The position numbers and the translations under genes are program-made. From Apostichopus japonicus (taxonomy: Eukaryota > Echinodermata > Holothuroidea > Aspidochirotida > Stichopodidae): DNA of 64,000 nucleotides. The stretch covers positions 30,403,666-30,467,665 of the forward strand of contig NC_092579.1 in the NCBI RefSeq assembly GCF_037975245.1, read 5' to 3'. A model generated the notes under the pieces. The model did no database searches. It was given only the letters and a program-made list of their open reading frames with translations, and was not told where the DNA came from. Below are positions 2,768 through 41,870 of the stretch, one piece after another. How positions within the stretch are numbered: the first letter of the stretch is position 1; each line of letters starts with the position of its first letter.

Positions 2768-5700
2768 ATGTCCAGAAGCATAAAAGACCTTCGGGAACTG
2801 GTTTGCGTCTCTCGTCTCACAATGAGAGAGGACGATGATGAGGAGGAGGATTTGTCACGACCTTTGACCTCTCTCAGCCTGTTTGAGGAGAGACTGTCCG
2901 AAGGTCCAGAGTTGCTCTTTAACTCTGGACATGGTTCTACCAATGGTGTAAGCAGTGCACTGTACAATCCCTCAATTGAAGTCCATCAGACAACATTAGG
3001 GAAAACAAAGCATGTTGAAAACATCAACAACAACAGCGCCTCGCTTGAAGCTCGTATGGAATTTGGTAAACAGAAATCATGCCTGCCTCCAGTAAGAAGC
3101 TCCTCTCAGAGACCCTCATCGGGGGATTCACAATCTCTAGCTAATGAGAGACAGGGATTCTATGATGATGTATTGAAATATTTAGACGAAGAAAGTGTCA
3201 GTAGTTGGTTGCATCAGGCGAACCAATCAGTCACAGAATTAACACACTGGTGTCAACAAGGAGAAAACTTTGTCGGGTTCTGTCATTTCTGGCTGACAGA
3301 ATTTTCACTTGACGAACAACTTGCACTGGTGAAGCTTGAAATAGGTGTTCTCTTGGACGAAATTGGTTTTGCTCTTCGAAACGCTATCAGCAGTGGAAAG
3401 ATTCGTGAAGCTGATGTCAAGACTCTCTTTTCGTCTCTCTTACCTGAATATCCAGGTAAGCTCTGTAGTCCACGCGGCCAGTACGTTTTTCTGAACATAT
3501 TAAATACACTATCCTCTGGGAAGACAGAAGGTTATAAGAAACTCTTGACGAATGTCAAGCTTCACACTCGTCAGTCTGATATTGCTCAGAGAGCTCTGTC
3601 AATAAGAGCTTATATTGTGATAAACCTTTGGAAGAATGTGACACAGTTCTATGTCAACGTCAAGTCCGTCACTCAGACCGAAGAGAAGGCAAAAGACACG
3701 AGACCTCAAACACCTGGAAAAGAAAATACCCACCTTGATAATGATAGAATATTCCAGGCTGTGAGACGTGGTAATGTCCGTGTCCTCCACTACATGCTGA
3801 GTAACTCATGTGGAAGTCCAAGCACAAAAGATGGCAGAGGGCAATCGCTAGCCTTGGCTGCAGTACTGAACAATCAAGCTAGAATTTTGAAGTATCTTCT
3901 CACAAAGGTTTGCTTTCATTTCATTTCTTTCCTTAAAATCACTGTTTTACCTCACCTCTAGTCTTCATACATAATATAGTCTATCACTTACCTGTCTCCT
4001 CACATCACCTGAACTGACACTGTGCTATGTCTAGAGTAGCTGGTAACATGCTCTTTGGATGACTGGACCTTGCTGGTGTATTGTCCACTTTAATCTACAA
4101 TTCAGATTGGTTAACATCGCTTTTTGTCCGGTAATCCTTAAAAGATCATTAGCCTAACTATGATATCTTTCTGGATCTTTGGTAGTGCCTTCACTGCCCC
4201 TTTACCTAATGGTATGTGAACAGGGAGAAGAATTGTAGAGTCAAACATATCAGCATTGTTAAGATGTAACCAGGGAATAGTGGTACAGTCCAGTCATTTC
4301 AACATTTCTTCTTCCATGCTCTGTAGCTTACAGTAGCCGAACTATGAAGCTGAATTTAGTGCCAAGCAAATAATTTCTTATTGCTATCATGTAACAGTTT
4401 TGCAGTTTAGCTTTGCCACCAATTACTACACAACTTCAAATATTTGTAGCAGGTCTTGTACCTTTTAATTTTGACTATTTGGCTTCCCTCAAATTTTCCT
4501 TAAATACAGACTGTGAACATATAATTTATTTTCCAGAAGTTAATTACTGTATTAATAACCAGTTTGTTTTCTAATTTTTCAGCATTCTGAGAATCTATCT
4601 CTTGATGAACCATGTGATTCTGGTAACACCCCTTTACACGTAGCTGCCAATCTGAACCATACAGAGTGTCTTCAGCTGCTCCTACAAGCTGGTTCTGTGA
4701 ATGTAAATGAAAAGAATCTTCAGTGTGAAGGAGCAACACCTCTACATTTAGCAGTCATGCAAGGTATAAAACTGCAACACAGTCTGTCTACATAAGACCT
4801 TACTAATGAAACCTCAGATGTCTCAAATGTCCCCTGAAGTAGTCCCCTGAGTCCACAAGCCAACAAGTCAGTAACCCTTTAAGCCTCCCCTCTACATTTA
4901 GCAGTCATGCAAGGTATATAACTGCAACACAGTCTGTCTAGATTAGACCTAACTAATGAAATGTCAGATGTCTCAAATGTCCCCTGAAGTAGTACCCTGA
5001 GTCCTCAAGCCAACAAGTCAGTAACCCTTTAAGCCTCCCCTCTACACTTAGCAGTCATGCAAGGTATATAACTGCAACACAGTCTGTCTAGATTAGACCT
5101 AACTAATGAAATGTCAGATGTCTCAAATGTCCCCTGAAGTAGTCCCCTGAGTCCACAAGCCAACAAGTCAGTAACCCTTTAAGCCATTCCTCTACATTTA
5201 GCAGTCATGCAAGGTATGTAACTGCAACACAGTCTGTCTAAATTAGACCTAACTAATGAAATGTCAGATGTCTCAAATGTCCCCTGAAGTAGTCCCCTGA
5301 GTCCTCAAGCCAACAAGTCAGTAACCCTTTAAGCCACCCCTCTACATTTAGCAGTCATGCAAGGTATGTAAAGTTCTGCAACACAGTCTCTCTAGATTAG
5401 ACCTAACTAATGAAATGTCAAATGTCTCAAATGTCCCCTGAAGTAGCCCCCTGAGTCCACAAGCCAACAAGTCAGTAACCCTTTAAGCCACTCCTCTACA
5501 TTTAGCAGTCATGCAAGGTATGTAACTGCAACACAGTCTGTCTAAAGTAGACCTTGATAATGAAACATCAGATGTCTCAAATGTCCCCTGAAGTAGCCCC
5601 CTGAGGCCACACGCCAACAAATCAGTAACCCTTTATTGTTAAATTAATTATCATTAATTCACACCACAATTTTTGAGATGTGTATACAAAATTTTCTATT

Positions 5701-6150
5701 GTGCGAGTTCAACCGATGCCCAATTCCCCCCCCCCCCCCCCAAAAAAAACAAAACAAAAACAAAAACAGTCAAATGTGCTGAGCTTGGTCTGTGTGGACT
5801 TAAAATTATTTGGAGCTAATGTTTCTTGCATGCTGGTGTGTTGAGGCCATACAGCTTATAATTTACCTCTGGAATGAAAGAAGTTGTTAATTTGTGAGTT
5901 ACCTTAAAGGGCTACATTTATAGTGGTATCACTCCATGCTTTCCTCATTGTTGTTATATACTCTATTGGCTATTATTAAGTGGTAACATATCTTTCCTTA
6001 CTTTCCCCTTTAACTCTAGGTAACAAAGAATCAATAACATTACTACTAGAGGCAGGAGCTGACAGAGGTGCCCTAATGAACGGAGTATCGCCGCTGACAC
6101 TCGCTGAGCAACTTGACCTGGAGGAAATAATGCAGCTGTTAGTAGAATAA
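2768..6150 (+). CDS. Ankyrin-repeat protein, three coding exons (about 483 aa), family not recognised
   Basis: Coding exons are 2768-3907, 4583-4763 and 6020-6150, with GT-AG junctions in phase 0 and then phase 1; they join into one frame ending at TAA. I chose the ATG at 2768; an in-frame ATG at 2696 lies in what is probably 5'UTR downstream of a good acceptor at about 2611. Residues 1-120 are acidic and Ser-rich and look disordered. Residues 120-310 look like an all-helical region I cannot name. The C-terminal 150 or so residues form about four ankyrin repeats, with clear GNTPLHVAA and GATPLHLAV helices, the latter interrupted by the last intron. The product is therefore likely a protein-binding scaffold; no catalytic motif is visible. 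Intron 2 contains a tandem array that copies the exon-2 donor. No obvious AATAAA was found close to the stop. Confidence 0.85.
4735..5632 (+). repeat. 150-bp tandem array duplicating an exon end and its 5' splice site
   Basis: Six copies begin with the last 29 or so bases of ankyrin exon 2 (CTCTACATTTAGCAGTCATG then CAAG) and run through the donor into intron sequence. The authentic exon ends at 4763 (GTATAA). Copied donors start at 4914, 5064 (both GTATAT), 5214, 5364 and 5518 (all GTATGT). Spacing is exactly 150 bp, except the last step of 154. The distal copies match the donor consensus better than the authentic one. Reading through the first donor meets an in-frame stop after about ten codons, so only the first donor keeps the last ankyrin repeat. 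Confidence 0.93.
5726..5767. repeat. Low-complexity C tract followed by A/CAAAA-rich run
   Basis: A C homopolymer of about 15 bases is followed by A8 and CAAAA repeats in ankyrin intron 2, just after the 150-bp array. Confidence 0.9.
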
Positions 6151-6644
6151 GAGAAGTAGAGATTGCTTCCTACTCACTGACTTCACTATGGTAGTGTTTG
6201 GTAGTAACTGCACAGTTAAGGCTATAAGTATTTTATGCAGTGAAAAGTGGCAGAAAGACACCTGCAGCTCTACCTGCACGGATGGTGTTATCAAATGTCT
6301 AGAATCCATCTTGCACGAGCAAAACTACCTTTTGCGTTTATAAAAGAAACAACTGATTCATTAACGGTAAAATCATTCCAAGGTACAATTCATTGAATAC
6401 ATTCCCTTATTGGATTGATTAACTTTGCTGTTTGGATAAATGGTACAGAGAGTTCCAAGTTGGCCAAGAATTAACCAGCAAAATCTTCAAAGAAATCTCA
6501 CGAGTAACACATGGAATGCCAAGTAGAGTACAGATCAATAATTGTGAACAGTCTCATCTATAATTTGGTTTGTCTTGTGGAATAATTTTGCTGCTTTCTT
6601 TTTAATGCCATATGCACATAAGGAGACTTATGTAGCCATGTACT

Positions 6645-6806
6645 GTACATCAAAGTATATCATCAGATCTTGTAGGTCAGTTCAGATCAGCCAGTTGTAC
6701 ATCAATGTATATCATCAGATCTTGTATGGTCAGTTCAGATCAGCCAGTTGTACATGAATGTATATCATCAGATCTTGTATGGTCAGTTCAGATCAGCCAG
6801 TTGTAT
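6645..6806. repeat. Three-copy tandem repeat, 54-bp unit
   Basis: Three near-identical copies of a unit containing TATATCATCAGATCTTGTA and GGTCAGTTCAGATCAGCCAG follow one another directly. Probably 3'UTR or downstream of the ankyrin gene. Confidence 0.9.
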
Positions 6807-8766
6807 TATCCTTATGGCTGAGTGATATTAAGTGCTCTGCTTGGTGACAGAAGTACCTTGGCTCTCCTTGTGTTTTGTGTGTTACCAGGTGACTTTCAGG
6901 TTTTTTGCATGGAAGATTAAACGTGTTATGATTCATGTCATCTTAGAATGATAGAATAGCATACAGTCATCAAACATCTCCATTTAACAGACCTCATTAT
7001 CAAGTACATCAATTCTTGGTGTAAGTTTTCACTGCTTAAAACTGGAATTTTGAGTATCATTAAAGCGCTCTTACTGCGAGTGGATTCGGGAGCTCTTTAG
7101 AACTAAATCCTGTTTTGATGGAATGCTGTGTAAGCTTAGTTATGATGATGAGTCAAAATTTGATTTCTCTAATATTTGGAATGAACAATGATGTGCAAAA
7201 TTAGACAACATTTCTGCTTGTTGTGATATCCCTGAGATATACTTAAATCTGCAATATCATCAATACCATAGGAAGTGAGTTGAGGTGATCCTTGAGACTG
7301 CAATTGGAATGACTTGTCGAGTTAAGGGTTGTATCCATGGTGGATGTTGCAAACATACAGCTATGTTTTACTCATAGTAATTCACTATTGTTTTCTGAAA
7401 TCTGGCATGCAACATGTACTGCTTACTGTCCAACCCAGTTGTGCAATTTTTGCAAACGAAAAGACCATTTTATATCCAAGTAAATGTTTTCCAAATTAGT
7501 CGTGAAATTCCATGACCTGTGCTGCTGTTTTATGTGTTTACAAATCATTGGATTACTAATAGGTTATAGATAACAATTTTTGAAGTAACATCTTACAGTT
7601 GTCAGTTTTTGGTGTTGTTAACCAGCTCCCACCAAACAATGACAGAAACAAACAATGTATTATTAGTATAAGTGTTTGGTTAGCTTGTTTTTATGAATGT
7701 TACAAAAGATGCATGACAGCCTCAAAAAACTTTCAAACCAGGTATCAACACTTAGATGTGATCAGCATTTTTAAAGCAAGTGCATCAAGAATGAGCCTTA
7801 TTTTCATGCTCGAAGTTCTATTGCCTCTTTAATTGGTTTGGCCAATTAACTACTACCTGAATTTTTTTGAGGTGAGACGACATTGAACATATCACTAGTT
7901 TATACCTTGCATCTGGTGGAAGTGAAATGTTACTTTACTCATGAAATTCAAATAGTTACATTCAATAGTATAATTGATTTTGGATTTTTTTTTCCATTTT
8001 TTTAATGGCTATTTTAGCTTGATCTTTCCTTTGATAATTAGACATTTTCTTCAAGGTGCTAAATTTATTACTTTTGAAACATTTGATTGCACTATTCAGA
8101 AGAGTTATTAACATCAAGTCTTTCTTTTGCTAATGTTATTACTCTTTATATAAACCAGCTGTTAAAGCACAAACTTAGTGTAAGTACTTTGTAGAATTTG
8201 AATTGTCTGAGTGAAATTTCTATATCCAGAAGTGAACATGCCTACAGCTCTTGATAATAATTATCGTGTCTGTAGAAAAGTAAAAACAGTTAAATGTATA
8301 AACAAAATAGAAGTTACTCTCCTTAAGCAAAAGAGACTGGCATCTAGTAAACAACCCCCACCCACCATCCCCACCCCACCCACCATCCCCACCCCACCCC
8401 TGTCATCTCTTCAATGGTGTTGGTGTATAAGACATATCGTAAATTACATAAAACTCAATGAATCTTATTTCATCTTGATGATACCAACATATAAAAATAC
8501 ATGTATAATAGCTTGGTGTTGGAATACAACAAGATGGTGTTGCCAGGCATGCCAACACCAAATTATGTGAACAAGATATTGCCTGAATTTTTAATTCTCT
8601 TTCTATCCTGTTCAAGGCATTGTTGCATTTTCATTGGTTATTAGATGCAAATTTCCTCTTTCTCATCAATTCAAAAAGAAAAGAAAATGAGTTTTACCTT
8701 GCATATTGTTGGCACAAAGATATATCTGCTTGCACATTCTTTTCAGAACCATCTGTGTAAAGAGAA

Positions 8767-8998
8767 TGATAATCTTAACATTGTCATGGAATTGATAGTT
8801 AATTCAATTTCCTACGTATCAGTTTTGAGATAATCTTACCATTGTCATGGAATTGATTGTCAATTACTATATACCAGTTTTAAGATAATGTTACCATTGT
8901 CATGGAATTGATAGTCAAATCCTACATATCAGTTTTTAGATAATCTTAACATTGTCATGGAATTGATAGTCAATACCTAAATATCAGTTTTGAGATAC
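8767..8998. repeat. Four-copy tandem repeat, 54-63-bp unit
   Basis: Four diverged copies of a unit starting GATAATCTTAACATTGTCAT and ending in ATATCAGTTTTGA, at about 8767, 8830, 8884 and 8939. Non-coding. Confidence 0.88.
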
Positions 8999-9020
8999 TG
9001 TTAGTTGTAATTATCTCTCC

Positions 9021-16100: not shown

Positions 16101-19100
16101 AGATTTAGGGGTATATAAGAACTGTTGACAATTTGTTTACAAACTTGAAAAAACCTGTTGACAAAAAGTTGTTGACAAAACTTGTTGACAAAGTCCAGGG
16201 GGAGGAGAAGGAAGAGGATGTGACAAGGTCCTCAGTTACAGTAGCCAGCCATCCATGCTATCAGCCATCTAAAGCCCTGTCCTTTATTCAAAGAGAAAAC
16301 TTCGGATCCCACTTGAAATTTGTTTTCCACAAACAATGGTAGGGATTTTCCCATATTTTGTAAATATTAATCGATTCCGCCTACACGCCAAGCAAAAGGA
16401 AACAGTTGTACCAGCCTGTGAGAGTTAATTGCCTCAGCCGCTCTATAAGATCCTGATGAAAGATGTTATGTGATGTATGCCAATTTGATCCTCTATGTGT
16501 TTCAGTCTGTGCATTCCATTCTTAAGAAAGAAAACAAAAAAAGTGGGAAGTTTCCATGACTATCAGCATCACTTCCTTGAGAAGTCTCTTTTGAGAAAAA
16601 TATGAAAAGATTATATCGTTCCTGGCGGTGTGTTTTGAATAATTCTCACAATGTTTACTGTGTGTACTTTCCTTGATCCTTCTACACACACTTCTGATAT
16701 GTAGTTTAATACAGGATGCTATATGCTGTCATTGTGTCCAAATTTAGCTGACTTGTATCTAGTTTTTTTCTCTATTAGCCATAATGGTGAAGTTAATGTT
16801 GTTGTATTGATGTGAGAGTATCAAACTACCAACAATGTATAGTATAGTTTACGAGACACATTTTAAATGTATATATACTATACTGTTGAAGTTACAAAGT
16901 TTGACTCATGCACCAAGTGTCTCTCTTTTTCAGGGATACATCTGGGCAGGGAAGGTTCTGTACCATCTTCAGGACATATTCAAGGGGGGCTCATGGTATC
17001 CTACTCGTCTACGACATTTCCAACAGGTGGTCTTTTGAGGGTATCGACAGGTGGCTCTCAGAAGTAGAGGAGGTAAAACCACCAAAAACGTATCTTTTGT
17101 AATAATCTTGAGATGTGAAGGAATGCACACTGTCCCAAAAAGAGCAATACCTAGCTATTCCTTCAAGTGTGCTTTTTTTTCTAGTTTTTGAGGTTAAGTC
17201 CTGAAATACACTAAAAAAATAATCTCAACTGATGTTTAAATCTAGGCATCTGCTCTCATAATTATGAGTTTCTAAACATTCTGGATCCGTGTAAGTGTGT
17301 GTGAAATTTAATAATTGCGAGGTTAGAAAGAAAAAGTTAATAGGTGTAATTGATTAACCTCACGGATGGCTGCTTCTTTGGGTATAAAAAGCTTAGTTTT
17401 CTCTGATCTGTGTCGTCCACTTGAAATTTATAATGGTTGAACTTCGAAAGAAGAAGGTAACAAGTTAATGTGAACTATGTAGTACCACAGGATGACTGTT
17501 ACTTTGCATATAAACTGCAGTACTAAACCTTTTTACAATGAATCCACTGCACATTACTTCTGCCTGTCTAGCCATTCAGATTCCTGACCAGTTTTTAATT
17601 TTTGTTTCAAACTATTACTTATGCATGCATGACGATTTGTATATTAAAATTTGTCACTACATGAATGGTTTTGAATTTACAGAGTATGTCTGGTTGATAT
17701 GATGGAACCATGAGTCATAACTACTCGCCACGATTGTAGTTTCTCTGTTTCATATCACCATGGCAATTTAAAAGTAGTAACACGTTGATGATGTAACAAT
17801 AATTGCTTTTCTTATTAGCATGCTCCGGGAGTGCCAAAGATCTTACTGGGGAACAGATTGCACCTAGCCTTCAAGAGACAGATCGGTTTGGAAGAAGCCC
17901 TGTCATACGCCAAGAAACATGACATGGTATACTTCGAAGTCAGTGGTCTCTGTGATTTCAACGTTACAGAATCTCTGACTGAGCTCTCCCGTCTGGTTCT
18001 GAAAAGAAATGGCTTAGACAGATTGTGGAGTACAGCCAAAGGTATCCTGGACAAGATTGTTAAATAGCTTCTTTTAGCCTTCAAGTCAGTCACTAAGCAC
18101 CCTAACATGTTATTCAATACCATACACATGTGCTAGACAAATTTATAGCCCATTGTTTACTGGAGATCATAAAATTGTTATGTGTTCTGGTATTGACTTT
18201 GTGTTGCATACATGGAGGAACTGAAATAACCGTGGGTGTGTCAGACGACAAAGTCCAACCTTTTGTTTAAATAATGAGCCTGATGTGTTTAAAGGGATAT
18301 TTTTCACACAAGAAAAAACAAAATAAATGGGGTATAGAAACACAACTTGCACATATAGCATTATTTTCAACAGTGTGCAATGCATCCAAAATTAAAATTA
18401 ATTTGTGCATTAGATAATTCTTTAAAGATTGCGAGAAGGATTTCCGTGGATATGAAAAATATGAAATTACAAAGTGACATAGATACAATGAAATGCTGTA
18501 CTGCCCTGGTTCAGTTTGAGTATTCTCTGCTATAATCCTTTAACGTAGCATACAAAGTGACTGCTTCCAGACTATAGCAAACAATGCCCCTCCGGACAAT
18601 AATGGACTAATGTGCGGACTTACACGGTTGATGTCCCTGTATCGATGTGTCATTGACTACACTCTACTTACTGAATACCTTCCTTATTGATCCCCCTTCA
18701 GTATTAAGCCTGCAAGATTACTGCTGCCGTACCATTGTTAACTGTGTTTCAACCTATGCCATTGACTACACTCTACTTACTGAATACCTTCCTTATTGAT
18801 CCCCCTTCAGTATTAAGCCTGCAAGATTACTGCTGCCGCACCATTGTAAACTGTGTTTCAACCTATGCCATTGACTACACTCTACTTACTGAATACCTTT
18901 CTTATTGATCCCCCTTCAGTATTAAGCCTGCAAGATTACTGCTGCCGCACCATTGTAAACTGTGTTTCAACCTATGCCATTGACTACACTCTACTTACTG
19001 AATACCTTTCTTATTGATCCCCCCTTCAGTATTAAGCCTGCAAGATTACTGCTGCCGCACCATTGTAAACTGTGTTTCAACCTATGCCATTGACTACACT

Positions 19101-20661
19101 CTTCTTACTGAATACCTTTCTTATTGATCCCCCTTCAGTACTAAGCCTGCAAGATTACTGCTGCCGTACCATTGTAAACTGTGTTTCAACCTATGCCATT
19201 GACTACACTCTACTTACTGAATACCTTTCTTATTGATCCCCCTTCAGTATTAAGCCTGCAAGATTACTGCTGCCGCACCATTGTAAACTGTGTTTCAACC
19301 TATGCCATTGACTACACTCTACTGTATACCTTTCTTATTGATCCCCCTTCAGTATTAAGCCTGCAAGATTACTGCTGCCGCACCATTGTAAACTGTGTTT
19401 CAACCTATGCCATTGACTACACACTACTGTATACCTTTCTTATTGATCCCCCTTCAGTATTAAGCCTGCAAGATTACTGCTGCCGTACCATTGTTAACTG
19501 TTTCAACCTATGCCATTGACTACACTCTACTTACTGAATACCTTTCTTATTGATCCCCCTTCAGTATTAAGCCTGCAAGATTACTGCTGCCGCACCATTG
19601 TAAACTGTGTTTCAACCTATGCCATTGACTACACTCTACTTACTGAATACCTTTCTTATTGATCCCCCTTCAGTATTAAGCCTGCAAGATTACTGCTGCC
19701 GCACCATTGTAAACTGTGTTTCAACCTATGCCATTGACTACACTCTACTGTATACCTTTCTTATTGATCCCCCTTCAGTATTAAGCCTGCAAGATTACTG
19801 CTGCCGTACCATTGTTAACTGTTTCAACCTATGCCATTGGCTACACTCTACTTACTGAATACCTTTCTTATTGATCCCCCTTCAGTATTAAGCCTGCAAG
19901 ATTACTGCTGCCGCACCATTGTAAGCTGTGTTTCAACCTATGCCATTGACTACACACTACTGTATACCTTTCTTATTGATCCCCCTTCAGTATTAAGTCT
20001 GCAAGATTACTGCTGCCGTACCATTGTTAACTGTTTCAACCTATGCCATTGACTACACTCTACTTACTAAATACCTTTCTTATTGATCCCCCCTTCAGTA
20101 TTAAGCCTGCGAGATTACTGCTGCCGCACCATTGTAAACTGTGTTTCAACCTATGCCATTTACTACACTCTACTTACTGTATACCTTTCTTATTGATCCC
20201 CCTTCAGTATTAAGCCTGCAAGATTACTGCTGCCGCACCATTGTAAACTGTGTTTCAACCTATGCCATTGACTACACTCTACTTACTGAATACCTTTCTT
20301 ATTGATCCCCCTTCAGTATTAAGCCTGCAAGATTACTGCTGCCGCACCATTGTAAACTGTGTTTCAACCTATGCCATTGACTACACTCTACTTACTGAAT
20401 ACCTTTCTTATTGATCCCCCTTCAGTACTAAGCCTGCAAGATTACTGCTGCCGTACCATTGTTAACTGTGTTTCAACCTATGCCATTGACAAACTTCCGC
20501 TGCCACCAAACTTGAGAACTAGATTAAAGTCGTATGCCGATGCCAACCACATTCATAGATACTTGCTGCCACACATAGAATGGAAGGATAAGAAAAGGAA
20601 AACCATTCTCAATGCTCAGGATCCGAACCAGTCTCTTCGCAAGAGTTGCAGTATATCCTGA
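13186..20661 (+). CDS. RAB40: RAB40 orthologue: Rab-type small GTPase with SOCS box (269 aa)
   Basis: Coding exons are 13186-13336, 15262-15322, 16934-17072, 17819-18041 and 20426-20661; all junctions are GT-AG and the phases (1, 2, 0, 1) join into one frame. The order is: atypical P-loop GDSDVGKEE (residues about 22-30), switch-[35 protein letters not shown] in place of the usual N/TKxD site, then a SOCS box with BC-box [12 protein letters not shown] and Cul5-box [11 protein letters not shown], and the C-terminus CSIS, a CAAX-like lipidation signal. These are hallmarks of RAB40, whose vertebrate members act with Elongin B/C and Cullin-5 as ubiquitin-ligase substrate receptors at membranes. 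Length is close to vertebrate RAB40. The SOCS exon is the final copy of a 17-copy tandem array, the other copies lying in intron 4. Confidence 0.96.
14642..15021. mobile_element. hAT-like non-autonomous DNA transposon (380 bp) in RAB40 intron 1
   Basis: Imperfect terminal inverted repeats TAGTGGCGGAGC and GCTCTGCCATTG (9/12) are flanked on both sides by the perfect 8-bp duplication GTATTATA (14634-14641 and 15022-15029), the size typical of hAT elements. Internally it shares the core GCTACGCGCCAAC...GGTGGCGCTCC with the elements at 44969 and 48328. There is no transposase. Confidence 0.8.
18655..20425 (+). repeat. Tandem array of 16 decoy acceptors plus half SOCS exons in RAB40 intron 4
   Basis: Units of 105-110 bp (mean about 108) each carry TTATTGATCCCCCTTCAG, then about 67 bp encoding [22 protein letters not shown], then about 20 bp of linker. 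Exon-like starts fall at 18702, 18811, 18920, 19030, 19139, 19248, 19353, 19458, 19565 and onward at similar spacing. The seventeenth, at 20426, is the authentic exon that continues into the Cul5 box. In 109-bp units the frame stops shortly after [11 protein letters not shown]. Units shortened by 4 bp (105 bp, 35 codons) stay open and link consecutive BC-boxes. Confidence 0.95.
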
Positions 20662-27794: not shown

Positions 27795-30700
27795 ATGGCG
27801 TCCACTGATGTTCTGCTGTTCGTGTACGATCTAAGTAAAGGCTTGGCGAAACAGCTGTCGTTGCCGTTAATTGGTAAGAGTTAATAGACAAAATAACTAC
27901 AGAATCTTTTATCTTGTACCCGAGAACGAGTACGAATTCTCTATTTCTTTTCTTTTACTAACTGATTATTCCCATACGAGACTATACAGTACTATTTACT
28001 ATACCTGTCTTCCACTGGGGTAGTGTATATGCCTAGGCCTACAGTATGTACTATCCACAATTCAGTAGGAATACCGTGGCCCTATGGGAGCACACATGAG
28101 AAAGGTCAATATCTGCAACTTGACTAAGGTATGCAGCATATAACATAGGCTAAGTATTGTTAATGTTAATGTGTTGGGATATGCCTACACTCCTTATAGG
28201 CCTAGTTAAACTTTCTCTGATCATTCATTGGCTATACTTATAAAGTATCCCCAGTTGAGAACATGTTCATATCTGTATTGTCGAGTACCACCAACAAATG
28301 GATAAATTTCTGATAAGATCCAGGCCAAAGGATATATTAGCACAAATATGTATGTAGCCTGTATTGGATTGTCAGTAAAATTGAGATGCTCAGAACACAA
28401 CTCTTGGCTTGTACGGGAGGATAGGTGACAGTTATGGTCTATCAGAGTTTCGTAGTTGTAAGTGTAAATTATCCTTCAATCATGTAATTTTGTTTCATAT
28501 TTGACCAGCTTGAATCAGAATTAATACTTAAATGGTCTTGTTTAAAGCACTAAGCAAGGTGACGTTTCCCAAACATTGTGCATGCACTATAAAGTTCTCT
28601 GTATGTTTTACTGGTGACATTTTCATGAACATACATTGAAATGTAATTGCTGATTTTCCATATAAAAACGTTAGCCATTCTTATATAGGTAGATTAGGTT
28701 AAAAGAGCATTAAAACAGAAGGCTATAAACAGAACAACATTCTTGAATACACATCAACTACAAGGTGTATCAATGTAAATACATATGTAATGAAAGAGTT
28801 GTGCAAAGTGAGAAAAGAAATTTTGTCACGTTGGATCATGAAAAATAAAGTTTGGGCGTAAAAAATGTATGTTTATACTTGATTTTGATGACATAAGGAT
28901 CTTATTCAGAGAAGGAAACTGCCATTTGTTAACCTTTTTACTTCTCACATTAAAGCATTGATGTTAGAGTAAAAGGACGTTTTTCTGTATTAATTTCACC
29001 AAGTGACATTAATTTGAAATTGGGAATGTTTTATCAAGGCTAAGTTTCCCCTTTAAGCAGTAATGAAGTATACACATCTGACAGTGAAAATTTCAGCAAA
29101 AATTACAAAAAATCTGGATTCTAATCAAGTAAATGTTTTTTCTCTAATCTCTGTTCAACTCCTCTGTGTCTGTTCGTAGGTAAGCAGTTAGATGGTATTT
29201 GGCACACAAGCATCGTCATCTTCAACAGGGAATACTTTTTTGGTGGCGGAGGAATCGAAAGCTGCAGACCTGTAAGTATTTGGCACAGGTGATGACTTTG
29301 GTAACCATGGAAACGAACTAGTTAATATTACTGGCTGAACCTTTATATTCCCTGATTGGTTGATGCTCATTGATCCATACAGTATAGACTACATAGATAA
29401 AACATGCTAAGGTCATGTATTGGTCCCAGTAGTTTAGCTTTGCGCTAACATTAGAAAATACTCACCTTTCTGAAGGTTCAGACATTCTACGTTATTCCCA
29501 GACATGGATGGAGGAAATGCTGATAGGGTAGCAGAAATAGAAATGTTGAAGTTTGGGGATGAGTGACCATTAGTAGACATTCTAGCATATTTGGGGTCAA
29601 TACTGGTGACCTTTAAATTTGATGACTTAATGAAATGGTTGATGTTATTGGTTGCTTTGTTATCTGTTGTACCTTCAAATATCAATATAATGATTGCCAG
29701 TTACAGTAGAGTACATTGATTTATATACTATGTTGTTACAAAATGCATGACAAAACATGGTTTTTAACAATATTTGAGGTTACATTTTGCCCTCAAAGCA
29801 CAACTGAGACACAAAGACTATAACTTTGATGAAGTATCAAAGACTTGATGAAGTACTGTATCAAGGTTTGTGGTGATGTTAGTGAGTAGAACCTCAGGGA
29901 ATAGTGTATGCAGTCTTGCATTGCAAAATGCTATGCAAATTTGGCAAATGGCTATACAAACTGTGCAAAGATGAATAGCAGGTTTTAAAAAAGGAAGCCA
30001 TAGAGTATTATAATAGACAAAGGTTGGAACCCTCAAAGTTGATACACAAAAGTTTGGGAACTAAATAATTCCCTGACCCTATGTCAACATTTAATTATGA
30101 CATGTGCAGGTTAGGAGACAGCTGTATGATATATATGGATTTGTAAACTATAACATAAATTAGATAAGTAGATATTTCATTGATATTCATGAGTGATGAT
30201 TATTATTATTCAATATATAATGTCCTATTGTCTTAACAGTGTGGAACAATCCTTGGAAAACCTGAAAAGACCATCCGCCTCGGAGAGACACAGGTGACCT
30301 ACGCCATCTTACTGGAATATCTCCATGAGCTTGGCGAAGAGAAATACACGTGGGTGAAAATTTGTTATAAATGTAACATCTCGCGCCCTCTTCCTCCCCC
30401 TACCTGCCTAACATCCCTATCGCCCACCCTACCCTTCCCCCAAATAGTTTCAATACCTTAAGAAGGATGGTTACTTTTCCAGATAAACAACACCCCCAAA
30501 ACACATCAACTATTAGCCCTTAGTCCTTCCCCCATTCCATCCTTTTCATTATCCATAAACTCTAGCTGTTATGCTTAATTGTTTTTCCAATGGTGTCCAG
30601 TCATTGACCATTACTACCAGATTTGTGTTACGCAAGAAATTGTGCTCAGAAAAATAATTTTGATCTTGGTAATCAAATTGATAAAATTTTCTCATTAACT

Positions 30701-33700
30701 GAAGATGGCATCCACCATATGTGTGTAATGACAAATTGAATAATTTTAGGGTCAAAGAGAAATGGGAATCAAGTGGCTTTGTGTCTGCATTGCCCTTAAA
30801 AGTTCCAACTACCTTGTGATGTTAAGTGTAACTTTTTGAATTTTTCCAGGATTGGTTACATAACATCATGAAGATTATTCAGTGATACATTTTTCTTTCC
30901 ACAGAGGAGAAAAGTACAATCTGTTTCAACACAACTGTAACACTTTCAGCAATGAAGTTGCGTCGTTCCTCACCGGTTCAAAGATCCCGGATTATGTGTC
31001 CACACTACCGCAAGAAGTCATGGACACGTGAGATTGGTTTAATACTGCTTTTTGAGTATTGTTTAATCTTTTTTAATATTTCTGTGTTTTAGGACAAATT
31101 TGGAAGCTTTAGTGATCATAATTTGGCAACAATGAATTAAAAATGTACATTGCGAATGGAGCAAGGAAGTCATTCCCTAAATTATTTGCCTCTGTATCAT
31201 TAAGAACTCAATTCTCTTGGTTTGATCATCTAGGATTTCAAAATGTCTCCTGATTTTAACTTGCGTATTATTTGCTGCAAACAAAAACAAACAAATTAGG
31301 AGAGTTATATTAAGGAATATATGTTAATACAACTTCAAAAAGCACACTAAACTAAAAACAAAAAACAAAACAAAAAACTAAACAAAAAACAAAACTAAAA
31401 ACAAAACAAAAAACAAAACAAAAAACAAAAAAACTAAACTAATTTCATGTTATATGTATGTTTGATTTGCAATTCCAAGTTAAATAGCTAGCTATTGAGG
31501 CATACAAGCATATATATTGTGTGTACCTGTTTGATTTCTACTTCCAAGTAACACACAATAGAGGTATATACCTAGGTGTTTAAGTCACTAGTTTCCTTTT
31601 TTCATGTTTATATAAATATATATATAAACCACAAATGCTTAAAAAATAGAAAAATAGAAATAGCATATACTTCATTATTTACTTTTGCATTTTCTTTTTG
31701 CAGAAACTAGAATAATGATCAATAGCCTGATCAGCACTTTCCATTTCACCTCAAAAGTTCTTGCAAAATTTGAGAGTGGTCACCTTGAGTTGGATTGACA
31801 GAATATTTCAACTCTCAGAAATCCTTTGCTCATTTCATTGTAAATAGATGTTGGTAAATAAACTCTAGTCCAGTTGGATAATTATAATCGAGATTACTTT
31901 TACCTAAGTTCTTGCAGTTGTATGATACCTTGGCTGTTTATATTCTAAATAATGTGCATTTCTCTTGCTCTCTCTCTCCTCGAAGCTCACTGAAACCATA
32001 AGTTACATTTTAAAGCATCTTATTTTGTTTATTGCAACAGGCCCATTGGAGCTATGCTTAAGAGTATCATGGACTCCATGACAGCTAACCCTATTGCTAA
32101 ACCAGGTGCCAATGCCTCTGAGAATGCTGCTATCAACGGTATCTCAAAGGGACAGAAAGAGGCGAGTGGATCCTCGAAAGAAGAAGAGGGAAGAGGGAAA
32201 GCATCAGAAGATGGTAACAAGTTTTGTTACATTGATCAAATTTGACAGACAATTTAATCTAATCTGGTATTGTCTTATTTCATATCTTACAAACTGTATT
32301 TCACCTTCTATCTGAGTGACCCAAGGACCTGGTGCAATGTTGCTCACGAAGTTGATGACAGTGCAAATAACCGATGAATTAGCCCTGACTGTTAATTGCA
32401 AATTATAGTGACTCTGCCCTGTAAACTTATATGCAAAGTAGGCTTGACCTTTGTGCTTCTGCTACAAGAAGTGTTGTGAGGCTTAGGCAAAGATTTTGTG
32501 TTCCTGTTTTGATAAGAAATAGAGTTTCTCCTGGTTGTTTAATGTTTTGTGACATTAAGACAAGTAGTAAAAGGAACATATGAACTGTGTTTTTTTTCAA
32601 TAGAATTTTGATCGCAAGAGACAAAAACTTGCAAACAGAACAAGCTGTTTTCACTCTGTTCTTGAACAAACAAACAGTGATCTATACTGACCAACAGAAA
32701 ACAAACACATCAAGTTGAGTTTATAAGGTTATCTGCAGAACTTGTTTCCTGTTCATTTTAATTTATTTCATTAATTGCTACCCTGTTTGTAGGTAAAGAC
32801 ACAGGAGGAGAAAATGCTGAAGAGTCTGGTGAAAACATAGAGGATGTTTTGATGGAGAGACTAAGGAAAGAGAAGATGCTGGAGAGATCCAGACTGGTCC
32901 TCTTTGAGGAGAGCAACGTGAGTCACTTTTGTCAAATTTGATTGGTTGTTACAGCTGTAGAACAGTGGCCTGTTAAGTTTACTTCCTGAACAAGGAAGCT
33001 TTTGTTATCTCATGCAAAAGTGCTGGAACAGGGTTGCCTGTGTTTCTGGGTTCGCATCTAGTGACTTACAGCTGGCTTCTGTTAATGTTCTTGGGAGGAT
33101 GTGCCCTATTTGCATATCCTACCATACATGTATGTAATACAGTGTGTGTGATTTAGCAGCAAGCATGTTAACAGTGTAGTATAATATATGCCAGTTTCTC
33201 TGATCTGATAAATGACACTAATAGAAAGAATAGAAGGGCCACAAAGTTTATTCCTCTGAAATGAAAAAATCCTGTTTTCTATGTTCAAATTCAGCAAAGT
33301 TCCATGATCAGTTTGCCTGATTTCTGTAAATTTGTTGTTTTCAGTTAGTTAAACCCCATGATCACTACTGTACAGTAGGCTACTATTTTAATAAGGTACA
33401 TAGCATAAGGACTCTTTTGAAATTTAACAGTATATTTGGAGAAGTCAAGGACAGTCTGAAATGAAGCTGTTTTTGTGATACGCATAGGGGAATGTTTTAG
33501 GCTTCTTTTGTATCAATGTAGGATCACACACTAAATAAATGTGTTGATACAGTATGTGAGTAAGCCATCAGTGACCTGACCTGGCTGGTTCATAAAAAAT
33601 AAGATTTTCATCATTCTGTTCTGCATAATATTTGGTTTTGATTCTGAATTGTAGGATTATTGTCAAAAATCTTATCAATTTGTACTTACAAAAGAAAACC

Positions 33701-36700
33701 TTTGAAAATCCCAAATACATTTTTTTTTTTTGGGGGGGGGGGGATTTTTTTATTACAGAAAATCAGTGACTTATATATAGAAGGTCATGACAGGCTGGCA
33801 TAAAATGCAGTAGATTAGGCATTACAAAATACAATTAAAACTTAGCCACCATTTTCACCAATGATTTAGTTAAGATATGCCTGCCTGTTTCGCTTGCACT
33901 ATTATATAACATGATATCCCTTCCTTTTTACCTTTCAAATTTCCCTATAAAGCCAGCGACATTGATCAGAATTCCATGGCAACATTCATAGCTGTCACCA
34001 TTGATTAGTTATGAGTGTGACTGCCAATTACAATGTTTCATATTTCTAATAATAGTAGCCTCATGTTGATCATTGTCTCTGAATATTTCAGCCTGTTGCC
34101 TGCGTGGAAGCAATCAAGACAAACCTTCCCAAAGGCCTCTTATCAGATGGAGAAATAACAGAGTTGGAGAACCTAGTACCGTGCCTCCTTGCCTCGGAAG
34201 ATGACATATATAAGCCATCAATAACACCTGCAGGGTTCCTGGTGTTAGGTATGTATGTATGATGGAAGGAAAGATCGTGCAAGGTTGATGTCCTGATTTA
34301 TAAACCCTTGTCTATTTGTTCCTGTGTTAGGTTTTGTAATGTAAATGGTATTGTAAAAGTCCATGTTCTATATAAATATCTATAAGATTGATAGAATGAA
34401 GCAGTTCATGAAAGTTCACTCTATCAGTAAACCCGATGTGGTATCAAGATATTGCAGTGGTCTTGGTTTCTTACTGTTATATGTATTTTGTGTATGAACA
34501 CCTTTAAAACTTTCAGGGTAGTATTTATTTATGCTCAGAATTTCTTACCCTTAATTTACTCTTACTTTTTAGTATTTGATAAATTTCAATTTTATCACTT
34601 ATCTCTGATCAACAGGTACATTTACTCAGTATGTAACATAGGATGTTAGTCTCTAATAAATTGATTGTTTCTGATCAACAGTTAGATTAAACAGTAATTA
34701 AGATGAGATTTTAGTATTTGATATATTGATTAATTGATTGTTTCTGATCAACAGTTGGATTACCCAGTAAATAAGATGGGATTCTAGTATTTGATATATT
34801 GATTAATTGATTGTTTCTGATCAACAGTTAGATTAACCAGTAAATAAGATGGGATTTTAGTATTTGATATATTGGTTAATTGATTGTTTCTGATCAACAG
34901 TTAGATTACCCAGTAAATAAGATGGGATTTTAGTATTTGATATATTGATTAATTGATTGTTTCTGATCAACAGTTAGATTATCCAGTAAATAAGATGGGA
35001 TTTTAGTATTTGATATATTGATTAATTGATTGTTTCTGATCAACAGTTAGATTATCCAGTAAATAAGATGGGATTTTAGTATTTGATATATTGGTTAATT
35101 GATTGTTTCTGATCAACAGTTAGATTACCCAGTAATTAAGATGAGATTTTAGTATTTGATATATTGATTAATTGATTGTTTCTGATCAACAGTTGGATTA
35201 CCCAGTAAATAAGATGGGATTCTAGTATTTGATATATTGATTAATTGATTGTTTCTGATCAACAGTTAAATTAACCAGTAAATAAGATGGGATTTTAGTA
35301 TTTGATATATTGATTAATTGATTGTTTCTGATCAACAGTTGGATTACCCAGTAAATAAGATGGGATTCTAGTATTTGATATATTGATTAATTGATTGTTT
35401 CTGATCAACAGTTAAATTAACCAGTAAATAAGATGGGATTTTAGTATTTGATATATTGATTAATTGATTGTTTCTGATCAACAGTTAGATTACCCAGTAA
35501 ATAAGATGGGATTTTAGTATTTGATATATTGATTAATTGATTGTTTCTGATCAACAGTTAGATTACCCAGTAAATAAGATGGGATTTTAGTATTTGATAT
35601 ATTGATTAATGGATTGTTTCTGATCAACAGTTGGATTACCCAGTAAATAAGATGGGATTTTAGTATTTGATATATTGGTTAACTGATTGTTTCTGATCAA
35701 CAGTTAGATTACCCAGTAAATAAGATGGGATTTTAGTATTTGATATATTGATTAATTGATTGTTTCTGATCAACAGTTGGATTACCCAGTAAATAAGATG
35801 GGATTCTAGTATTTGATATATTGATTAATTGATTGTTTCTGATCAACAGTTAAATTAACCAGTAAATAAGATGGGATTTTAGTATTTGATATATTGATTA
35901 ATTGATTGTTTCTGATCAACAGTTAGATTACCCAGTAAATAAGATGGGATTTTAGTATTTGATATATTGATTAATGGATTGTTTCTGATCAACAGTTGGA
36001 TTACCCAGTAAATAAGATGGGATTTTAGTATTTGATATATTGGTTAACTGATTGTTTCTGATCAACAGTTAGATTACCCAGTAAATAAGATGGGATTTTA
36101 GTATTTGATATATTGATTAATTGATTGTTTCTGATCAACAGTTAGATTACCCAGTAAATAAGATGGGATTTTAGTATTTGATATATTGATTAATTGATTG
36201 TTTCTGAGCAACAGTTAGATTACCCAGTAAATAAGATGGGATTTTAGTATTTGATATATTGATTAATTGATTGTTTCTGATCAACAGTTAGATTACCCAG
36301 TAAATAAGATGTGATTTTAGTATTTGATATATTGGTTAACTGATTGTTTCTGATCAACAGTTAGATTATCCAGTAAATAAGATGTGATTTTAGTATTTGA
36401 TATATTGATTAATTGATTGTTTCTGATCAACAGTTAGATTACCCAGTAAATAAGATGGGATTTTAGTATTTGATATATTGATTAATTGATTGTTTCTGAT
36501 CAACAGTTAGATTATCCAGTAAATAAGATGGGATTTTAGTATTTGATATATTGATTAATTGATTGTTTCTGATCAACAGTTAGATTACCCAGTAAATAAG
36601 ATGGGATTTTAGTATTTGATATATTGGTTAACTGATTGTTTCTGATCAACAGTTAGATTATCCAGTAAATAAGATGTGATTTTAGTATTTGATATATTGA

Positions 36701-39700
36701 TTAATTGATTGTTTCTGATCAACAGTTAGATTACCCGGTAAATAAGATTGAGATTTTATTATTTGATATATTGATTAATTGGTTAATTGATTGTTTCTGA
36801 TCAACAGGTAGATTACTCTGTACGGTAGATCTCCCTCATGAGTTGCTCCTCCCGTTAGTAGATCTACTTCAGCTCGTCTTCCTAGATCCAGAAATCATCA
36901 AAGAGCAAAAAGAGAACGACGACCACGCCATCATGACCTTTGTTTTCCTGCTTCAAACTTATTCTCTCGACGTTCAAGTGTCTATCTTCAGATTGGTACG
37001 TAGAAATTCTTGCTGGGAAGCGCATGTTTTGGTCCGATTATTTGGGAGGTTCAGGAGGGGTCGGGATATGGGGTGCGGGAGGGGGTATTATAGTGCTTAG
37101 TCACCTTTTTGTAGCTCGAAAGTTTGGAAAAGTAGACATGACGCAAAAGATTTGGAATTTTATTTGCATTAGTTTGTTATAAATATAATCTTGAAAAGTT
37201 AACTTAGCTACATTATTTACTGAATTATTGGCATAAGTTCCATAATGGTTGATTTACTTGTGTGTCCATTGTGATACTCTCATCACTTTGAATTTTTTTT
37301 TAAAACATTTCTACATTAGTAAATATTAATATTGTGTTCAGAACCCTGCAACAGAAGCATGACTCGTATTGTTAAAAATGTTTGTCTCTGTATTGAATCT
37401 CTCTGTAGTTTTAACGAAAAGGCTTACTATAGTCCAGAGGAATGTTTATTTTTGACTGACGACAGGAACAAATTGCAAAGCAGCCTGGTGAAAATTTGCA
37501 CTTGAAACAGAGTTTTCAAGATATTGATAATTGAAATTGTCGCAGTTTGAACCATAAGTGAACCCAAAATGAACAGTTGTGATGTCATTGTTGCACACCT
37601 TATTGCTTTGACCTTAGATTGGATTAGGTGCAAACGTAGCCAAAGGGAATGTCAAGATATTCCAGCAAAGGCAGTGTATACATTCTGAGATGCAAGAAGG
37701 AAATTACCATTTAAGTTTGAAGAAAAACATAAAATAAATTTACAGCCTGCTTCTATGAAATCACACTTGTTTGCTTCGAGTTCACTTATTCTGCAAAACA
37801 TGTCAAATACAAAATGATGTCATCTCCATCATGATCAGGTATGCAGGTAATGAATGCAAATTTTTGCCAGCATCTTTCATGTGTCTCTTTCATCTTTGAA
37901 ATATTAATTTTCATACTACTCTTTTATTGCCCAGGTATCTTTACTATAAACAGTACTATTATTTAGGGTTTCAACCATTAAGCTTCATTAAATTGATAAA
38001 CAAAATCTAAAACCTTAATGCTATAAAATGGAATAAACCATTATGACTTTATGCAATATTAGAGATGAGTTTTAAGTTTATTTGTTTGTTGTTTACCCCA
38101 TTTTACGGTTCTCAGAAAAGTAAACTTGTTTTCCTAGATGTAATATTAAGTGTTTAATGGACATTATGGCTTAGTGCTTATCAACTGGTTGTCCTTCCAA
38201 CAACCTCAATTTTAAGTTTGCTTGATGCCTGTAAGAAATTTCACCTTGGCCTACAGATCAACAATCCTTATGATCAAGTTGCTTAATAACTCTGATTTTG
38301 TTTCATTTTCAGTTATGCAATGCTTGTTCGACACGAAAGGGCAGTCTTTGGCTGAAGGCTGAGCAGCAGTGGGTGTGTCCCGTGGATGGACAACCCACTA
38401 GCAATATGCAACTCATGATCTCACTGATAGTATCCAGCCTCCTGAGCACGGTTCTCGATCTCATCATTGCGTCGGCAACACTCGTTTACAATATGACGAG
38501 ACACAACGTAAGCTTATGAATCAGCATTCTCTATTATTAAAAATCATACAAGGTTATGCAATGCCATTTCCTCCTTGTTAGAGTAGAAGCCACTCGATAG
38601 GCGCACTTTGAATGAAAATAATATCACAATGTTTATTTTATTTGGGAAATAATGGCAAAGTAAAGAGTTTTAGATAACTGTAATTTTACTGACTTATATT
38701 TTAGATCAATTTGACATCTTATTTGTGCAATAATATTTTATGATGCATAAAGTAGTTTACACAGAGGGTTGCCTAGCAACAATAAAAACAATGCAAGTTT
38801 TGAAGTTTTAAGTTTCCTCTGTTCTCATTCTGCTTCCCATTGCATATTTATTGTCAATAATAGAAGGATTTTCTTGTTGATAACAAAAAAATTAATTTAT
38901 ACAAGTTGATTATACCATGTAACCAAGGATAAGGGAGTAACATTTTTTGAACATTTAAGAGGAATAAGGTGCTACATGGTCTCTATTATCTTCATATTAT
39001 CATGCCTTGAAACTTAGGCTACTAACTGGCTAAATGCTGGTGATTTTGTCGTTTGCCAGTAGACAAAAAAATGCACTGGCGTTTGTCTTCCAATATAGAC
39101 ACATGTTGCTTTTGTAATTAGTTAAGGAAAGTGCCAGTGCCGATTTAAGTTTAGCGAGGAGCTTTTTAGACCATTGCATTTTTTGGCTAGTAGCTAAATT
39201 GTGAAGTTGTAGGTCTTGTTTTTATATATATACTAAGTGACAAACTTAAAAAAACATTATATGGCTTTCATTATTAAAGCAAAAATGAACCTCAAATAAT
39301 ATCTATGATGTTTTTCCAATGCCCTGTGTGGTTTGAATTTTTGAAAGCTAAATATCCTTGATATAGAAAAGAGAAGAAAAACTTAAAAGCCTTTGCTCAC
39401 TGTATGATTACTTCCTTGAATATCATGTTGTAAATATTCTCTTCTGAAGTCATGCATATTGTAAGAGACAGCATTTCAAATTAGCTCTGTAAGTCAGTCC
39501 ATTTGTGACAAACAACTGAATTTAAGTTTGTTTAAACTTCTTGCCATTTCTCGACTGTCGATTCACTAATGGACCATTAGTTCTTTTCATCTGTCATTAC
39601 ATCCTCTCTTATGCCTCTCCATTTGTTTATGACATTCACCGAAATATGATCTTTTATTCTTATCAATCATATTCATGCATGAAAGAATCACAGTACTGAT

Positions 39701-41870
39701 AAATACTCCCTGGAGTCTCACACTGATGCTTTCATTTGCATTTAATACATAAACCAAGTGTTGGTCTGTAGTTTAAAGGGACACTACACTGAATGAGCAA
39801 AAAAAGAAGCATACCTTAATGGTACCAAAATCAAATGAAGACTGTTTCCCTGAGTGTATATCTTCATGAAATCTTGTGAAATCACCAACATTTACACAAA
39901 ATTATAATCACTATATGCAAATTAATATTTCCAAAACTGTCAAAATATTCATAAAAGTGTGCTTTAAGTTCATTTTTATCATATCTAGCCACTTTTGGGG
40001 TCCTAGATATACAGCCTTTCCAGAGAAGTATGCTGCATTTTCAGGAATGCACATTAGCTATATAGAATGAGATAATAATAAAATGAACTCAATCCTCACA
40101 GATCTTCTTTGATAGGTGGTGTCAAATATTTTGGAAATTTTATTTTGGAAATGAGCAAAGAAATTGATGGCTAAAACAGGTTCAAACCAGTGACTTGTGG
40201 GTTACCAGCTGTCTACCAACTTAGCTTAGTTGGTGTGCATTCTCTATCAAGCCATTTCTTTCTGGTGGGGGGGGGGGGCTGTCAGTCAGATGCCACAGTA
40301 CAGTGCATGCCTTGTAACCAGTTTCATTCAATACAACCCAGAAAGTGGCTGAAAAGGGATTTCATAAAAATTCGACTTTAAATTATCTTTTATTTTGGGC
40401 TTTACTCCATACACTGTTTGTGGTTTTTATATTTTAGTATTCATGTTGAGGTTACTATCAATGTGTCTTATATCTTGTATAAAAATATGTGACAGAGGCA
40501 TAAACAAACCAGACAATATTCTCTATTCCAAAGAGACAAATGTTCCAAAAATAGGAGTGAAAAGATTTGTTAAAATGGTCATTTAACCATCCAGTGAGAA
40601 ACCATTCCTTGTGTTCAGCTAGTGCAAATAACTGTGAACTAAGCCTGATATGTTAATATAAGGGGTTGATAAGGCTCAAGTTGTTTTATTACTTTTCACA
40701 CGTCTTTGCTCCTTCAGATTTCAGAAGATTTTGTTGTGGAAGTGTCTAGTGCCCTTATCCAGTGTTTAACCATTGAACTTACAGAAGAAGCCAGTGAGTA
40801 TTCACTTTAACTTGTTTGTCTTAACTTCTGGATCTTAAAGTGTCTGTCTGTGTGTATGTCTATGTTCTGGCTGTACCGTACAACCCTGGTATTCAAACGT
40901 TCTTAACTTGGTGACTCCAACTTTTACCTGATACAACTTGGAGACCCTCCAGTGGTAATTTTGCGGCTCGAGAAGGCGTGTACATGTAGGAGGTGTCCCC
41001 CTCACATTTGAGAAATTTTTATGTGATTACAGGAACATTGTTGCAAAATGGTGTTTTTTTTTGCAACTTTTATTCCAGATTTTGTTACTGGTTTTTTTTT
41101 ATCCTGAATTTTTGGCAGCCCTCCAAAGCATTTTGGAGGGTCCCTAAATGGATTGCGACCAGCAGTTTGACTATCAGGGCAGTAGGCAGTAGTATTCCTT
41201 ATATAAAAAATTCAGTTCAGAGAAATCTATTAATTTCTACCATTTAATTAACCAATTAAATCAAGGAATGCTTGTTCTGTAATCAGTTAATCTGTTCCCT
41301 GCATGGTTGGCAAAAGAGAAGGCACCTTTAATAGTAAATACACTTACGATGAAAGATTTAAAACAAAACAGAAAAATCTTACTCCACTTTGGGAAATATA
41401 TTGGTCTCAAAATTGACTGAACTTATCAAGTTCATCAATTATCAAATATGTGGAGAGAAAAAAAAAACAGAACTTATTGCATTTAAAAGTTGTTTTGTAT
41501 AGCCATTGTTGAAATGGACTTACCAGCAGCATTAAAGTTGATTCAAGAATATTGAAAGTCTGAACTCTTGGCTTTATTGAGCAATTGCTTAATTGATCTT
41601 TTTCGATCTCTTTAATAACAATTTTCCAATATAATTTGTGAAGTTGGAATTTGTGTATTAATAAATTAAAAACTTGTTAATTTATTTTTGTTTCCTCTGA
41701 CAGCGTTTCGATGCTTGCAAGCTCTGTTTGGTCTGATGCCGTACGGAGAGGTGGGGAGTTTGATGATGGTCATGGGGGTGGATACAGCCAGGTACGGTAC
41801 CATGTCAGAGAGGACAGCCGAAATATGCAAGAAAATTGAAGACGCCATGCAAGCCTCACCAGTAGATTAG
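27795..41870 (+). CDS. DESI/PPPDE isopeptidase fused to PUL domain (494 aa, 11 exons)
   Basis: Exons: 27795-27873, 29180-29271, 30240-30349, 30905-31027, 32041-32213, 32793-32917, 34092-34248, 36808-36995, 38313-38507, 40718-40793, 41704-41870. All junctions are GT-AG and the frame is continuous. Residues 1-140 match DESI1 ([42 protein letters not shown]). The papain-like catalytic pair His35 and Cys105 is intact, so deSUMOylating or related thiol isopeptidase activity is expected. Residues 140-235 are a low-complexity Ser/Glu/Lys-rich linker with one charged helix. The remaining 260 or so residues are armadillo-like helices including [25 protein letters not shown] and GVDTARYG, which I read as a PUL domain, the PLAA/Ufd3 module that binds p97/VCP. 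Vertebrate DESI1 is under 200 aa and lacks this part. Confidence 0.9.
31355..31438. repeat. AAAAAC/AAAAC low-complexity run
   Basis: A-rich repeats of ACAAAACAAAAA type in DESI-PUL intron 4. Confidence 0.9.
34600..36807 (+). repeat. 73-bp tandem array of about 31 acceptor copies in DESI-PUL intron 7
   Basis: Each unit carries TTGATTGTTTCTGATCAACAG followed by TTAGATTACCCAGTAAATAA and GATGGGATTTTAGTATTTG. The acceptor AACAG recurs every 73 bp from about 34615 to the authentic acceptor at 36806-36807. The authentic exon starts GTAGATTACTCTGTA, and the repeat continues as TTAGATTACCCAGTA, so the unit is a copy of the real 3' splice site plus the first 15 or so exon bases. Variant units recur in order, indicating higher-order duplication. 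Confidence 0.95.
37554..37789. mobile_element. TIR element (MITE-like, 236 bp) in DESI-PUL intron 8
   Basis: Ends are perfectly inverted for 10 bp (ATAAGTGAAC and GTTCACTTAT), and the similarity continues inward through TGTGATGTCA on the left and ATCACACTTGTTTGCTTC on the right. It is related to the element at 22384. No clear target duplication was found. Confidence 0.72.

Follow-up and report, generated by a model that had tools for sequence, protein, structure and literature searches.

The window analysed here is a 64-kb stretch of contig NC_092579.1 (positions 30403666-30467665, forward strand) from the sea cucumber Apostichopus japonicus, whose genome comprises 671,581,487 bp in 35 contigs. 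Three adjacent plus-strand genes in this window each carry a tandem array that includes a predicted exon-intron boundary, and the splice site at that boundary is present in 6, 17 and 31 copies, respectively. Arrays were delimited with Tandem Repeats Finder (TRF), and their copies were listed by a search for the splice motif itself, in which a copy that had lost the motif would appear only as a gap in the spacing. Coordinates below are window positions.

Gene 1 is a predicted FAM220-ankyrin gene. The coding part of its first exon (2768-3907) encodes the FAM220 domain (Pfam FAM220, E 2.6e-45) followed by the first part of the ankyrin region, and the frame stays open across a join from the donor after 3907. 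Exon 2 (4583-4763) encodes ankyrin repeats (Pfam Ank, E 7.4e-14), and its join to position 6020 preserves the ankyrin frame; exon 3 (6020-6150), assigned by frame, contributes the last ankyrin part and the stop codon (Pfam Ank, E 0.011, below the cut-off). Array 1 occupies 4732-5635 (TRF: 150 bp x 6.0, 93%), and its first copy includes the final 32 bp of exon 2. TRF, the copy listing and the frames of the possible isoforms together place six copies of the donor in this array, spaced by 150-154 bp: the authentic donor at 4763|4764, identified by frame as copy 1, and decoys after 4913, 5063, 5213, 5363 and 5517. A further minisatellite (50 bp x 9.3, 2069-2533) lies upstream of gene 1 and stops 235 bp short of its start codon; no splice junction was detected on it.

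Gene 2 encodes both a Ras domain and a SOCS box, a combination that we take to be the Rab40 layout, and it is termed Rab40-like here. Two exon parts encode the Ras domain: 16911-17123 (domain positions 46-118; Pfam Ras, E 2.4e-13; coordinates converted from the frame) and 17819-18041 (positions 104-161; E 3.9e-7), the latter with a donor after 18041. The last exon (20426-20661) encodes the SOCS box and the stop codon (Pfam SOCS_box, E 8.6e-7). Array 2 (18651-20490; TRF: 109 bp x 17.1, 95%) consists of 17 copies of the acceptor together with about 60 bp of the exon, with the acceptors spaced by 105-110 bp. Judged by frame, the authentic acceptor is the last copy, with the exon starting at 20426; the array was characterized by TRF, the copy listing and the isoform frames.

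Gene 3 is represented by two exon parts that encode a PPPDE peptidase, 29167-29277 (Pfam Peptidase_C97, E 3.6e-7; PDB 3ebq) and 30900-31028 (E 5e-17; PDB 3ebq/2wp7, E ~1e-21), and by an exon directly after array 3 (36808-36995). The latter is an open frame flanked by a consensus acceptor and a consensus donor, with a weak PUL match (Pfam, E 0.009, below the cut-off); a PDB search with this exon alone gave no match. The PPPDE exons and the array 3 exon would belong to a single putative PPPDE/DESI1-like gene. Array 3 (34587-36807; TRF core 34659-36781, 73 bp x 29.1, 95%) holds 31 acceptor copies, including decayed copies at its ends. The spacing of these acceptors is 73 bp throughout, save for 66 bp between the first two and 82 bp between the last two, and the authentic acceptor, by frame, is again the last copy. 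Besides TRF and the copy listing, this description draws on copy identities and frames. Support for the array 3 junction is weaker than for the other two and comprises the open frame, its two consensus sites and the weak PUL match.

Comparison of the three arrays showed that (i) the repeat unit extends across the exon-intron boundary, clearly so in arrays 1 and 2 and with weaker exon support in array 3, (ii) both types of boundary are affected, the donor in array 1 and the acceptor in arrays 2 and 3, and (iii) the splice signals are retained throughout, in 6/6 donors of array 1 and in 17/17 and 31/31 acceptor motifs of arrays 2 and 3, with no spacing gap in the motif listing that would point to a copy with a lost motif. 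The original prediction had placed an array on a splice junction in each of these genes; TRF recovered all three at the positions it gave, and its description of them was accurate.

Reading frames were used to ask which copy could yield the normal product. When exon 2 of gene 1 was joined to the downstream exon through each of the six donors, the ankyrin continuation was obtained from the first donor only, and the five decoys shared one stop codon about ten codons beyond it. In gene 2, the full C-terminus was obtained from acceptor 17 only, with truncation through acceptors 1-16. Among the acceptors of gene 3, number 31 alone leaves the exon frame open, and the other 30 lead to a stop after five codons (seven for the first). 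Used singly, all 51 decoys (5 donors, 16 acceptors of array 2 and 30 acceptors of array 3) thus truncate the product, and the normal mRNA presumably uses the outermost site. The same rule had been proposed in the original prediction, and the frames bear it out, with the first donor in array 1 and the last acceptors in arrays 2 and 3. We do not regard the outermost copy as a new principle, because it follows from the geometry: in a tandem duplication that spans a junction, only the copy touching the exon keeps the native continuation.

The donors of array 1 differ in their motifs. Gene 1 has GTATAA at its authentic donor, and three of the five decoys (5214-5222, 5364-5372 and 5518-5526) have GTATGT. 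The latter is nearer the donor consensus; measured against it, the authentic site at 4764-4772 is weaker by motif than these three decoys. It had also been suggested that the arrays are selected as buffered splice sites, the spare copies serving as insurance should the authentic site be lost, or tuning splicing. Both the complete retention of the decoy signals and the three consensus-like decoy donors would fit such a role. However, none of the 51 decoys, each used singly, gives the normal frame, so that no single copy can replace the real site, and selection is not required for signals to persist in homogenised arrays. We therefore consider buffering highly improbable.

The internal structure of the arrays points to the way in which they may have grown. 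Array 2 opens with the word CATTGAC, and its last copy ends in the exon at a second CATTGAC. The founding unit is thus flanked by a direct repeat about one unit (about 109 bp) apart, and array 2 may have been founded by slippage between these short repeats. In array 3, the end copies are 62.2% and 67.1% identical to the consensus and the internal copies 97.3% on average, and multi-copy blocks of copy types recur along the array. Such blocks and decayed ends are what unequal exchange would leave. A similar but weak pattern of decayed ends is seen in array 1 (94.7% and 91.3%, internal 97.0%). A dispersed element was rejected as the source of the units: in a genome search that skipped very common words, each array-derived query matched its own locus only.

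Collapsed or inflated repeats in the assembly might produce such arrays artificially, and the copy numbers of long arrays are generally error-prone. This is contradicted by the diversity of copies, with 15 copy types among the 17 copies of array 2 and 16 among the 31 of array 3, and by the like structure of five further junctions described below. Moreover, the A. japonicus assembly, if it is the one of PMC10344927, was obtained from PacBio HiFi reads, as the accessible text of that report states. An assembly artefact is the least probable of the explanations considered here, and the exact copy numbers remain uncertain.

To place the three arrays in a genomic context, we surveyed junctions located by the ends of Pfam matches and by splice consensus in exons of four gene families: protein kinases (30 of 134 places), HECT (30 of 96), myosins (64 of 70) and kinesins (12 of 126). 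The best-scoring exons are over-represented in this set and myosins account for 121 of its 217 distinct junctions; in one step, 11 of 206 expected junctions were left out for want of an acceptable splice site. A junction was classified as covered if any TRF row spanned it. Five of the 217 junctions proved to lie inside an array, one of 29 in kinases, none of 45 in HECT genes, four of 121 in myosins and none of 22 in kinesins. Four are donors, namely a kinase donor (L019, 31 bp x 16) and three myosin donors (L064, 53 bp x 6.8; L089, three copies of ~124-163 bp that include about 88 bp of exon; L120, mixed units), and one is a myosin acceptor (L112, 124 bp x 3, including about 69 bp of exon). 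Reading of the sequence showed copied splice sites in each. The rate is 2.3%, with a binomial interval of 0.75-5.3% and an interval of 0-5.4% from a bootstrap over gene groups, which allows for clustering. Junction arrays are present in other genes as well, as the original prediction had expected of a wider phenomenon.

Two neighbouring observations were made at HECT loci of this survey. At L049, an array built of some 16 units of 68 bp (1757-2869) starts 35 bp into the intron and does not cross the donor at 1723. At L047, a 66-bp unit x 8.7 (1-570) lies upstream of a HECT exon and has a consensus with a GGTAAC-like donor and a CCACAG-like acceptor; these splice-like motifs could be a chance resemblance or an old array of the junction-spanning kind. 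Among the kinases, four copies (L027, L028, L029 and L032; profile 23/25-257; C1 and C7) are accompanied by similar-looking tandem repeats of ~180-260 bp, which suggests a dispersed gene or element family.

The number of covered junctions was compared with a chance model in which arrays are founded uniformly in introns, and the expected number is the number of junctions multiplied by the total length of array units per base of intron. For three TRF thresholds the model predicts 3.5, 2.8 and 2.4 covered junctions vs 5 observed (Poisson P(>=5) 0.27, 0.15 and 0.09). The overall excess at junctions is not significant, and a two-fold enrichment could hide in a survey of this size. A TRF-free test scored near copies of a 24-mer within 330 bp, with low-complexity windows left out. 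Local duplication was found in 27/1910 positions (1.4%) of exons 12-48 bp from the junction, in 10/428 at 4-12 bp, in 20/643 (3.1%) at the junction itself, in 6/209, 20/571 and 43/1141 in three bins outward through the first 48 bp of the intron, and in 746/13344 (5.6%), the highest class, at 48-320 bp into the intron. With the exception of the 5-12 bp bin (2.9%), the profile climbs in order from exon through junction to intron, and a general hot spot at junctions was rejected for lack of a peak there. At the level of single junctions, the 24-mer test flagged 6 of 215: four of the five covered by TRF (L064 was missed) and two others, L040 and L085, each with a single near copy, which we take as chance.

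Comparison of these results leads us to consider it probable that the arrays arose by near-neutral minisatellite growth that happened to catch junctions while the copy next to the exon was kept by selection, and that they are of the kind named mirages in amphioxus. The proposed course is as follows: (i) a short tandem duplication, by slippage or unequal exchange, would by chance include an exon-intron boundary, in array 2 between the two CATTGAC words ~109 bp apart, (ii) later unequal exchange would multiply and homogenise the units, (iii) all copies but the one touching the exon would sit in the intron and be spliced out, and the gene would work provided that splicing takes the site next to the exon, and (iv) selection would maintain that copy as functional and in frame. 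Junctions would on average be captured at about the rate expected from this genome's high minisatellite load, and no directed process or benefit would be needed. The founding by slippage at microhomology and the near-neutrality are inferences.

Several observations weigh against this explanation. At the level of single arrays, the ends of array 1 share at most one base and show no clear microhomology, those of array 3 are too decayed for such a reading, and array 2 lacks the pattern of decayed ends (97.2% at both ends, internal 95.1%). In the survey, the five covered junctions are somewhat above every expectation (2.4-3.5), and just 3 of the 57 gene groups account for all of them. A single myosin gene at C4 23.97-24.00 Mb holds L064, L120 and L089, so that 3 of its 12 surveyed junctions are covered (P 0.0023 at a uniform overall rate) by arrays that look unrelated to one another. 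Arrays cover 6.0% of the introns of this gene vs a survey mean of 5.2%, so that local array density does not explain the clustering. In the window, three cases have a P of 0.01-0.035 for an assumed 20-26 plus-strand junctions, before allowing for the after-the-fact choice among about 10,500 windows of that size. Since clustering within a gene is seen outside the window as well, a common regional cause may underlie the three neighbouring cases, and a propensity to junction arrays at the level of the gene or region is possible.

Some of these observations could be accounted for by a junction-directed duplication, acting perhaps in some genes only, for instance where R-loops form, transcription stalls or partly spliced RNA is reverse-transcribed: the three arrays in three adjacent genes, the myosin gene with covered junctions and unremarkable intron coverage, and the count of 5 vs 2.4-3.5. 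Such a mechanism is nevertheless unlikely. The excess over all junctions falls short of significance (P 0.09-0.27) and turns into 2 of 205 junctions vs 3.0 expected when the myosin gene is left out; local duplication is highest deep in introns, with no peak at the junction; and many of the 62 scanned loci contain TRF arrays at a distance from the exon matches. The claims that three cases in the window are more than coincidental and reflect a process seeded on junctions are accordingly reduced to a mild excess in the window, which is not matched by a significant excess in the survey. Within the limits of a small sample, the overlap of arrays with junctions was not significantly higher than chance, which the original prediction had itself named as the outcome that would speak against such a process.

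Three further features lie in the window, two of them on the minus strand. A single-exon rhodopsin-family G-protein-coupled receptor is encoded at 54890-55954 (-) (Pfam 7tm_1, E 5.6e-50). An open frame of 517 aa with repeated-looking stretches at 58275-59825 (-) has no Pfam match at E 0.1, and a 136-bp repeat x 2.2 (57909-58202) lies directly 3' of this frame.

The absence of a named system of this kind had been assumed in the original prediction; such a system has in fact been named mirages in amphioxus (PMC3087553, PMC3902484). In the accessible text of these reports, mirages are known in Adh3, in the globins BflGb6 and BflGb9, in troponin C and in PGBD5; regular splicing is undisturbed, haplotypes differ in copy number, and a model of intron gain has been proposed. 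According to the same text, mirages share with the present arrays a minisatellite-like tandem duplication over the 5' or 3' intron-exon boundary, units in the range of 10-160 bp and the retention of GT or AG in many copies. Unlike them, the present arrays are hosted by a sea cucumber rather than a cephalochordate, and two are longer, with 17 and 31 copies vs 6 and 3 in two BflGb6 haplotypes as reported there. Homogenised internal copies with excluded ends, described for the amphioxus arrays, are found here in array 3, weakly in array 1 and not in array 2.

Junction-spanning repeats have been described in other settings, too. A 31-bp variable number tandem repeat (VNTR) of the human CBS gene resembles the present arrays in that, by its own name, the repeat unit lies over an exon-intron boundary. 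Lievers 2001, going by its title, is said to have associated this VNTR with enzyme activity. The accessible text of a further report gives it as c.1444_1467+7(16_21), a polymorphic repeat of 16-21 copies whose unit crosses the donor boundary (PMC2630376). Intron gain by tandem duplication, as outlined for the RdRp gene of potato in the part of the report available, likewise involves a duplication across an intron-exon boundary (PMC4974935); there the duplicated signals form a new intron, whereas here, to judge from the frames, the copies stay within the old one. Internal tandem repeats in human segmental duplications are minisatellites that alter gene structure, some of them at exon-intron boundaries, and differ from the present arrays in residing in recent human paralogues, half of them in coding sequence, according to the accessible text (PMC2812944). 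Among the open-access papers listed by our searches, none reports junction-spanning repeats in sea cucumbers and none is by its title about such repeats in echinoderms, and the 2017 sea cucumber genome paper does not mention junction repeats in its accessible portions (PMC5638244).

The phenomenon itself is thus already named; its occurrence in an echinoderm, an approximate rate set against chance expectation and a hint of clustering are what the present analysis adds. Otherwise this is ordinary repeat biology, mostly explained without a special mechanism. With the rate and the chance comparison, junction arrays turn from a gene-by-gene curiosity into a feature that is predictable from the minisatellite load and testable where it clusters. 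Tentatively, and with some doubt, we suggest that mirages are a widespread, nearly neutral gene architecture that extends beyond cephalochordates and gathers in particular genes. Should the rate found in the survey apply throughout, some 2% of the junctions of this genome would be embedded among near-identical decoys, and from as many as 31 copies the spliceosome would pick the one that touches the exon. With an acceptor repeated almost identically up to 31 times and a single copy that keeps the frame, such arrays open splice-site choice to a direct test, and they would form a natural library for what defines a real splice site past the local motif. They would also provide standing raw material for new introns, and their clustering, if true, would indicate a trigger at the level of the gene or region.

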